From positions 1 through 64,000 of IMG/VR virus record IMGVR_UViG_3300045972_000138: a stretch of 64,000 bases of DNA. One strand, written 5' to 3'. The notes under the pieces were generated by a model, which saw only the letters and a program-made list of their open reading frames with translations, made no database searches and was not told where the DNA came from. Position numbers and translations under genes: made by a program. Below, in pieces: positions 1,693-3,614 of this stretch (position 1 is its first letter; each line of letters begins with the position of its first letter). The stretch comes from a virus.

Positions 1693-1956
1693 ATGGCACA
1701 TAAAATTGCATCAAGTATAGAGTGGACTAGTATAGAAACTATTTTGGTAAATAGTACATCGCACCTAATGTTTAGGAAAGATGTAGTTACGATGATACGG
1801 AATATACGGCCACGTATTAATGAGCTGTCTAAAGCCGAAGTCAACAAAAGACGCGGACTTTCTAATAATGTGGATGAATTACTAATTAGTATTAATAATG
1901 ATATTGATTTAGTTGAAGGTTATATTTTAGTTGCCGCATTAATCGGCAAGGCTTAA
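1693..1956 (+). CDS. unknown helical protein, probably leaderless message
   Basis: An 87-residue protein (begins MAHKIASS). The frame stays open upstream to a TTG at 1657, but that TTG is the promoter -35 itself, so the ATG at 1693 is chosen. There is no Shine-Dalgarno because the predicted transcript begins at the ATG. The sequence is helical and mixed-charge. No family recognised. It sits directly ahead of the diguanylate cyclase gene. Confidence 0.65.
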   Translation: MAHKIASSIEWTSIETILVNSTSHLMFRKDVVTMIRNIRPRINELSKAEVNKRRGLSNNVDELLISINNDIDLVEGYILVAALIGKA

Positions 1957-1959
1957 CCA

Positions 1960-3186
1960 GTGTACGAAGCTATGTTTTTTACCACCATAATTGCTATTGC
2001 GACACCTAGCGTAGTTTTGCTTACGAATGTACTTGTGATAACAGGTATAATGTTTGCACTCAATTGGTTGGTATTACTTACGCAGACCAACACTTCTCAC
2101 ATAGTTTATGCACAATTCATATTGATGAATGCGTGCTTTGTTATAGCAGCATTCGCATCCGTATATCTTCCAGGAGTTCAAAACCTACCATCTGTATTTG
2201 TCGGCTGGCAGTCATTTGTACCCATTATCTCAGATTTCTTTGCTGTATTAGGCGTTATGGTAACGCGGCACGCAAAACAAACACTAAGAGGAAAGCATCA
2301 CCGATACTGGCAAAAAACAATATTCATAATAGCATTCCTTATAATTAAGATTGCACTTGCACTAGCAGGTATTTCTTCAAGTTTTGTACACGTTATATTA
2401 TTTTCATCTGCAATGATTATATCGTCTGCAATGGCAGTATGGGATATAACAATGGATAAGAATAATACTCTAACTCAGGAAATAATTCAAGGATCGGCAT
2501 TTTATGTTATAATTGTTGCGATGGCTGTTAGAATATTTCAGGAATTCTACGGGATACAAACCGACCTAGGAGCAGAGGGTGACCTACCATTTGTATGGAG
2601 TTATTTCTTTTCGTTAATGATTATAAACATCACATTAATCTCTCAGGTAGCACAGGTTAAAATATTAGAAATAGTTAATCTAGCACAAATAGATAATCTA
2701 ACAGGTACTTGGTTAAGGAAATCAATGATTTCCAAAATCGAAGCAGAACATGCAAGATTTATACGCGATAATAAACCGTATTCTATTATATTATTTGATA
2801 TTGACCACTTTAAAAAGTTTAATGATACATTAGGTCACGCCGCCGGCGACGAGGCACTAAAATTTGTAGTAAATCAAGTCAGATCTAGTATACGGAAGAT
2901 TGATTCATTTGGTCGATGGGGTGGCGAAGAATTTGTTATCTTATTGCCACTAACAACAATTAACGATGCAATGCACGTTGCTGAAAAATTAAAGGTTAAA
3001 CTAGAATCTAGTTATTTTGAGTGGCACGATAAAAGCACAACCGTTACGTGTAGTTTTGGCGTAGCCGAATCAACCACAATGCATACAGTTGATGGTATAA
3101 TAACAGACGCAGATTCGGCCATGTATGCTGCAAAGAAAGCTGGTCGTAGTAGAGTAAAAGCATATTCGATTGACTCTGCGTTCTAA
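1960..3186 (+). CDS. membrane-bound diguanylate cyclase (GGDEF)
   Basis: Predicted to make cyclic di-GMP from two GTP at the inner membrane. Residues 8-230 hold about seven transmembrane segments, a MASE-like sensor region. Residues ~242-400 are a complete GGDEF domain with metal/substrate residues in LFDIDHFKKFND (D280, D282, N288) and signature GGEEF at 321-325. The inhibitory I-site RxxD is present at R312-D315, five residues before GGEEF, so product feedback is expected. The start is GTG; an ATG at 1972 is the alternative. No phosphodiesterase domain is attached. A cyclase is unusual in a phage and could change host motility or biofilm state (inference). Confidence 0.92.
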   Translation: MYEAMFFTTIIAIATPSVVLLTNVLVITGIMFALNWLVLLTQTNTSHIVYAQFILMNACFVIAAFASVYLPGVQNLPSVFVGWQSFVPIISDFFAVLGVMVTRHAKQTLRGKHHRYWQKTIFIIAFLIIKIALALAGISSSFVHVILFSSAMIISSAMAVWDITMDKNNTLTQEIIQGSAFYVIIVAMAVRIFQEFYGIQTDLGAEGDLPFVWSYFFSLMIINITLISQVAQVKILEIVNLAQIDNLTGTWLRKSMISKIEAEHARFIRDNKPYSIILFDIDHFKKFNDTLGHAAGDEALKFVVNQVRSSIRKIDSFGRWGGEEFVILLPLTTINDAMHVAEKLKVKLESSYFEWHDKSTTVTCSFGVAESTTMHTVDGIITDADSAMYAAKKAGRSRVKAYSIDSAF

Positions 3187-3198
3187 TTCCTATATAAT
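3170..3198 (+). promoter_or_regulatory. sigma70-type promoter TTGACT-N17-TATAAT
   Basis: The -35 lies inside the end of the GGDEF gene. The -10 is 20 nt before the ATG at 3219, leaving room for the AGGGGA ribosome site. Confidence 0.75.
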
Positions 3199-3218: not shown

Positions 3219-3614
3219 ATGCAAGATATTACAAGGAATGTTATGAACGCTATTAAAATGAACCGCCTCGAACTTTTAGAAATTGTTCGAGCAAACAAAC
3301 TTACTCACATTGCTGAATACAACGAAGCAGTTGAAGATTACAAAACTGTTGTTTTGGATATTGCTACAGCAAATGTCAAGGTAGCCAAGACTGCCAAACT
3401 GGAAGAATTTAAGAAGATTAAACGCACGCCCGATGCACCTGTTTCGTATGAATTAAGTTATGCTCGCGCTATTCGTATGCTCGAACTGTCTGTAGAAGAA
3501 ATTATCGAAGTCGAAGAAGATGTATTTAATCAATTAGTGCTCGACGAATGGCACTGGAAGCGTAGCTTCACAATGAGCAACTCGACATACAAAATCGGTG
3601 CATCTGCATATTAA
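3219..3614 (+). CDS. conserved phage protein of unknown function
   Basis: A 131-residue soluble helical protein with a Shine-Dalgarno (AGGGGA) 6 nt before the ATG. The C-terminal half (PVSYELSYARAIRMLELSVE, then VLDEWHWKRSF) resembles a small protein I have seen in many large phages, with no assigned function. It has its own promoter and heads the operon running into the Pth2 gene. Confidence 0.75.
   Translation: MQDITRNVMNAIKMNRLELLEIVRANKLTHIAEYNEAVEDYKTVVLDIATANVKVAKTAKLEEFKKIKRTPDAPVSYELSYARAIRMLELSVEEIIEVEEDVFNQLVLDEWHWKRSFTMSNSTYKIGASAY

Follow-up and report, generated by a model that had tools for sequence, protein, structure and literature searches.

The open reading frame at positions 1960-3186 raises the question of whether a phage encodes a genuine membrane-bound c-di-GMP synthase and, if so, what such an enzyme would do during infection. 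The window analysed here is the 64,000-nt stretch that corresponds to bases 1-64000 of the virus record IMGVR_UViG_3300045972_000138 (237,609 bases), and coordinates refer to this window unless the record is named. Taken together, the analyses lead us to propose, with moderate confidence, that the phage acquired a two-gene c-di-GMP kit, composed of this cyclase and a separate EAL phosphodiesterase, which would set the local c-di-GMP level in the infected cell for the benefit of the phage itself.

The frame is located on the plus strand, is open over 408 codons from a GTG start positioned 3 bases past the stop codon of the small gene ahead of it, and is predicted to encode a membrane-bound diguanylate cyclase of 408 amino acids. 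Residues 242-398 (2683-3153, plus strand) matched the GGDEF domain (Pfam PF00990; E-value 1.4e-38) over the full model (positions 1-161 of 161), with 132.7 bits against a cut-off of 23.8, and NCBIfam TIGR00254 matched the same frame at 9e-46, values that place these predicted relationships far beyond chance. The best solved relatives were 3ign, 5llw and PleD (1w25). Mapping of the residues by alignment onto PleD (numbering offset -47) revealed the metal ligands D280 and E323, the guanine contacts N288 and D297, and the phosphate contacts K285, K392 and R396; these residues and E324 all align with their PleD counterparts and are invariant in alignment A3. The GGEEF signature was recognized by motif reading and by the PleD alignment at residues 321-325 (2920-2934, plus strand), and an RKID I-site at residues 312-315 (2893-2904, plus strand), aligned with R359 and D362 of PleD, precedes it by the canonical five residues. 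The RxxD I-site mediates allosteric feedback and is not universal among GGDEF cyclases. The secondary I-site residue of PleD, Arg390, corresponds to Lys343 in the phage protein. An Asp at the position of D297 is typical of c-di-GMP synthases, whereas the cGAMP-making Hypr GGDEFs have a Ser, and the phage cyclase is of the Asp type. The sequence-only reading had described a full GGEEF domain with metal ligands and an RxxD I-site, and both the complete PF00990 match and the alignment of all PleD catalytic and I-site residues agree with that description. The assignment of the predicted product as a diguanylate cyclase is strong.

The N-terminal part of the protein (residues 9-227; 1984-2640, plus strand) forms a putative membrane module. 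Hydropathy analysis revealed seven hydrophobic segments of 19 residues each, starting at residues 9, 48, 79, 120, 142, 175 and 209, in line with the approximately seven membrane segments reported earlier; the first hydrophobic stretch (about residues 4-42) could accommodate two helices, so that the helix count is 7 or 8. In a topology derived from hydropathy only, the Lys/Arg-rich loop (residues 98-119) and the GGDEF domain would then fall on the cytoplasmic side. The module had no Pfam match, either to the MASE families or to similar ones, and GGDEF was the sole Pfam match in the frame. No relative of the module was detected in 20 genomes or in a set of 160 ORFs with GGDEF domains, of viral and cellular origin, and when 369 genomes of the class to which a gammaproteobacterial MAG (G044) belongs were scanned with the cyclase, the matches were confined to the GGDEF region.

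The record carries the phage hallmark genes for tail sheath, RIIA, RNA ligase and terminase. Its large terminase subunit is 60.7% identical over 99% to those of the Pseudomonas phages PA5oct, Paride and their relatives, and the terminase is 80-89% identical to those of many uncultivated viral contigs. Terminase similarity, myovirus structural genes and a genome of more than 200 kb place it with the PA5oct-like jumbo phages of the T4 superfamily. The source is a real jumbo phage, lytic and of the T4 superfamily. Terminal repeats were absent from the record ends, and the record may be incomplete. The cyclase is thus phage-encoded, as had been claimed, since it is set between conserved phage genes in the record of a genuine jumbo phage.

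On its left, the cyclase borders orf99 (1694-1956, plus strand; likely start ATG at 1694), a small conserved phage gene with 45-48% identity to its homologues in two related phage loci, L178 and L181, and on its right phrog_34511 (3219-3614, plus strand), a conserved phage gene 59% identical to its L178 homologue. The gene order in L178 is the same (orf99, phrog_34511, membrane protein, PTH2, HNH, RNA ligase), with a gap of less than 100 bases between the first two genes that contains a promoter and no cyclase; the cyclase is also absent from L181. A motif scan revealed two strong sigma70-like promoters flanking the cyclase on the plus strand. The first, TTGACA-17-TATACT (11/12), lies at 1657-1685, past a tRNA cluster and ahead of orf99 and the cyclase, and the second, TTGACT-17-TATAAT, lies at 3170-3198 at the 3' end of the cyclase. 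In the relatives, the equivalent of the second is a strong sigma70-like promoter, TTGACA-17-TATACT, located directly after the orf99 stop codon. Since this promoter follows orf99 in the relatives and the cyclase in the studied phage, the cyclase was inserted between the orf99 stop codon and the promoter, and such an exact insertion between a conserved phage gene and its neighbouring promoter indicates an accessory insertion and not contamination.

The plus strand carries nearly all the larger genes, and sites of this sigma70-like quality numbered nine on the plus strand of the window, compared to a mean of 2.15 in shuffles, and none on the minus strand. The cyclase would probably be an early product, transcribed by the host polymerase from the sigma70-like promoter at 1657. 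No T4-type late promoter (TATAAATA) was found near the cyclase or the EAL gene, and the motif was not enriched. The G+C content and codon usage of both genes are ordinary for the phage, which indicates that neither is a fresh import.

Two other genes of the window are of interest for its organization. The DUF2828/DUF7788 protein encoded at 9689-11116 (PHROG 'RNA-binding protein') is 79-83% identical in two relatives and belongs to the best conserved genes of the region. A short accessory gene at 8017-8448 (plus strand), absent from L178 and L181, encodes a BLUF (blue-light/FAD) protein (Pfam BLUF, 6.3e-22), in which the Gln usually required for photoactivation is a His (YYLHLLEG versus FLQVLEG), so that the photochemistry may be altered or lost. 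A partnership of this protein with the c-di-GMP enzymes is possible but unproven. The interval between the o229 and DUF7788 genes, which holds the BLUF gene in the studied phage, is occupied in L178 (positions 10709-11557) by an ORF that, by eye only, may resemble ADP-ribosylglycohydrolases.

A search of the record for EAL domains returned one match (E-value 1.3e-58), located outside the window on the minus strand at record positions 84151-85731 (L089, 4151-5731). Pfam analysis indicated that this gene encodes a predicted CSS-EAL phosphodiesterase of 526 amino acids, in which a hydrophobic segment at about residue 17 is followed by a CSS-motif domain (PF12792; residues 57-187, 1.8e-10), a second hydrophobic segment at about residue 246 and the EAL domain (residues 279-510, 1.1e-56). 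The EAL catalytic residues are all present (E308, N366, E398, D427, D428, K448, E484 and Q504), as are both conserved Cys positions of the CSS domain (CSPE and CSS). The closest solved EAL structure is that of Pseudomonas PA3825, and the full-length cellular relatives that were found are only 30-34% identical.

The EAL gene is placed between o86 and HSP20 of the conserved block ClpX-o86-HSP20-ClpS-SUF. The gap between o86 and HSP20 is about 110 bases in two relatives, contains a caspase-like gene or an unknown ORF in two further ones, and holds in G002 a larger insert, part of which is a caspase-like gene. These varied contents identify the gap as a cargo hotspot, and the EAL gene is an accessory insertion at it. 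Both c-di-GMP genes are intact, retain their catalytic residues and are inserted in a conserved phage backbone; they lie 82 kb apart on opposite strands.

Several features of this second region were also recorded. The stretch at 80-88 kb of the record (L089) encodes ClpX, ClpS, HSP20, a SufB/D-core protein and a PTPS/QueD-like enzyme, and the ClpX-to-SUF cluster recurs in related phages. In two related jumbo phages (L200, 1660-2619; L199, 3043-3894), the region that corresponds to the EAL gene carries a gene classed by eye as caspase-like (metacaspase) from its 'HYSGHGSQ' and 'DCCHSG' motifs. In the intergenic region that separates the divergent EAL gene from HSP20 (L089, 5732-5842), a 6-bp inverted repeat, ATCACT-gtaaaat-AGTGAT, stands beside a TATAAT-like box and is possibly an operator.

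The distribution of such genes was analysed in related phages and in viral contigs at large. No GGDEF domain was found in 43 related phage records, which included pieces of 385, 369 and 338 kb, and no EAL match above the cut-off in the 40 of those records that were screened for it or in the phages SP-15, G and MaAM05; PA5oct-lineage isolates were not among the phage matches listed for the cyclase or the EAL protein. A scan of viral contigs with the EAL protein alone returned no relative, and an alignment-based pattern was then used for the viral EAL scan. Pattern scans of 2.9 million viral contigs confirmed at least 98 GGDEF and at least 124 EAL loci, counts that are lower bounds and include prophages. 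A GGDEF domain was also present in 17 of 20 EAL-bearing viral contigs, mostly in frames of 550-1290 amino acids, consistent with fused GGDEF-EAL proteins. A terminase model search, applied to the large GGDEF/EAL contigs to prove their phage identity, missed even SP-15. The earlier statement that phages rarely carry c-di-GMP synthases is fair at this frequency of GGDEF loci but does not hold as an absolute, given the isolated jumbo phages SP-15 and G. The Microcystis phage MaAM05 was set aside as a GGDEF precedent, its surroundings being bacterial-looking (pgi, icd, hemW and kdgA); its accession, MW495066.1, may be mislabelled.

In the mechanism that we propose, the cyclase would reside at the inner membrane, where its cytoplasmic GGDEF domains would pair and convert two GTP into c-di-GMP, and binding of the product at the RKID I-site would shut the enzyme down. 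The N-terminus of 7-8 helices would serve as an anchor and probably as a sensor of a membrane or envelope cue. The CSS-EAL enzyme, also at the inner membrane, would hydrolyse c-di-GMP, with an activity that probably depends on its periplasmic cysteines. In E. coli, the activity of CSS-EAL enzymes, among which we take PdeB, PdeC and PdeN to belong, depends on the periplasmic thiol state. Acting as writer and eraser, the two proteins would set the local c-di-GMP level and thereby alter host motility, pili and surface glycans, and perhaps superinfection. No PilZ effector was found in the record and no c-di-GMP riboswitch among the Rfam matches in the 144 kb scanned, so that any effect would be exerted via host c-di-GMP receptors.

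The most likely gain would be that the phage's own production is favoured and rival phages are limited. Phage N4 needs host c-di-GMP for its receptor glycan (PMC8669472), overexpression of several phosphodiesterases including PdeB, PdeC and PdeN blocks N4 (PMC7553319), and infection by PA5oct requires LPS and, probably, type IV pili (PMC6950013). Effects on receptors and lifestyle would fit the published phage work (PMC7553319, PMC8669472 and PMC12380882) better than a blunting of defence, and altered motility and surface receptors, for example by excluding rival phages, appear to be the most economical role.

With an EAL eraser present, the phage is probably able to move c-di-GMP in either direction, and the earlier suggestion that it acts by raising c-di-GMP is on its own too simple. 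A dedicated two-way switch, with an early membrane cyclase, a thiol-controlled CSS-EAL enzyme acting at another stage or under other conditions and perhaps the BLUF protein as a further input, can be put forward only tentatively. The distance and opposite orientation of the two genes are such that linkage does not show joint action, and no conserved GGDEF/EAL pairing was found in the related records (43 screened for GGDEF and 40 for EAL), which lends no support to cooperation. If such a switch existed, it would be the virus that, in the course of infection, moves its host from sessile to motile and back, or from receptor-on to receptor-off. A lytic jumbo phage with both writer and eraser would mean that a virus owns a second-messenger circuit, and would make it a testable question whether phages control the motile or sessile state and the receptors of the cells they infect, either for their own spread or to keep competitors out.

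The same features were weighed regarding other explanations. The two enzymes may both be active and yet be passengers, acquired by chance or benefiting the host in a stalled infection and soon lost, with no switch run by the phage. This explanation is rather unlikely, but it is the most probable of the alternatives: neither gene turned up in the screened related records or, among the matches listed, in PA5oct-lineage isolates, relatives have either different genes or none at the sites that the two occupy, and the two are unlinked. Intact frames, the conservation of every catalytic residue and phage-like composition and codon usage suggest instead that the genes have been retained for some time, and the independent carriage of a membrane-anchored GGDEF protein by the jumbo phages SP-15 and G also argues against mere chance.

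A role in counter-defence, in which the cyclase would supply a decoy ligand or the EAL enzyme would destroy the signal of cyclic-dinucleotide immunity, is improbable, and the blunting of such defence is the weakest, poorly supported, of the roles suggested from the sequence. Several phosphodiesterases directed at nucleotide-based immunity are predicted in jumbo phages (PMC7824862), and a c-di-GMP alarm could be erased by an EAL enzyme, but in systems that use c-di-GMP as the alarm, the phage's own cyclase would trigger the defence. Neither enzyme has defence-related neighbours, and a Pfam scan of 28 ORFs, most of them close to the two enzymes, showed no known anti-defence gene, the remaining genome being sampled only. 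In addition, c-di-GMP is rarely a defence messenger, as it is in CBASS STING systems. The substrate of EAL enzymes is specifically c-di-GMP, whereas CBASS and type III systems mostly signal with different nucleotides.

Less probable still is that the GGDEF domain functions as a c-di-GMP-binding or scaffold protein and not as a working cyclase. I-sites alone can act as receptors, and cyclase activity is here a prediction; degenerate receptors, however, usually lose the GG[DE]EF motif or a metal ligand, while D280, E323, E324, N288, D297, K392 and R396 are all kept. Finally, an assembly artefact that joined bacterial DNA to a phage contig is scarcely credible, for although GGDEF and EAL genes abound in bacteria, each gene stands alone with syntenic phage genes to its left and right, both have phage-like composition, and no cellular counterpart is close (identity reaches 47% at most across the GGDEF domain and 30-34% for the full-length CSS-EAL protein).

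Both proteins were compared with known systems. The cyclase shares with the PleD-type cyclases (TIGR00254, PF00990) the same complete catalytic set and the canonical RxxD-x5-GGEEF arrangement, and differs from them in being phage-encoded and in having an N-terminus of 7-8 helices that lacks a detectable family match. Likewise, gp150 of Bacillus phage SP-15 and gp350 of Bacillus phage G, both isolated jumbo phages, combine a GGDEF domain with a hydrophobic N-terminal anchor and keep the RxxD and GG[DE]EF motifs. The SP-15 protein, however, has one hydrophobic segment and the G protein has 254 amino acids, identity over the GGDEF region is 31%, and an EAL protein, present in the studied phage, was not found in either of those genomes. 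The CSS-EAL enzymes of E. coli (PdeB, PdeC, PdeD, PdeG and PdeN) and Pseudomonas (PA3825) have the same CSS domain enclosed by a pair of hydrophobic segments, and an EAL site that is likewise complete, whereas the enzyme studied here is phage-encoded and 30-34% identical to its cellular counterparts over the full length.

Cyclases on mobile DNA are also known from DgcK, DgcL and other proteins of SXT/R391 ICEs and genomic islands, and such mobile-element cyclases alter biofilm formation and motility of the recipient (PMC10672970); the carriers of DgcK and DgcL are integrating, conjugative elements, whereas the present carrier is a lytic phage. A phage peptide reported to switch on YfiN, a cyclase of the host (De Smet et al., 2021, as reviewed in PMC12380882), likewise represents a phage raising host c-di-GMP in infection, but it works on the host enzyme and not through a phage-encoded cyclase. 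Cyclase genes have been described on viral DNA in a Mu-like virus from Cariaco (PMC7785012) and in Methylobacterium viruses from a glacier (PMC8290583). Compared to the studied phage, these environmental cases are temperate and Mu-like, prophage-related or, in large IMG/VR contigs, single fused GGDEF-EAL proteins, with no separate writer and eraser. Phage c-di-GMP genes as such are not new, given SP-15, G and these two reports, alongside a few large viral contigs with probable fused GGDEF-EAL proteins, whereas a writer and an eraser encoded by two distinct genes appear unusual in a proven T4-superfamily jumbo phage.
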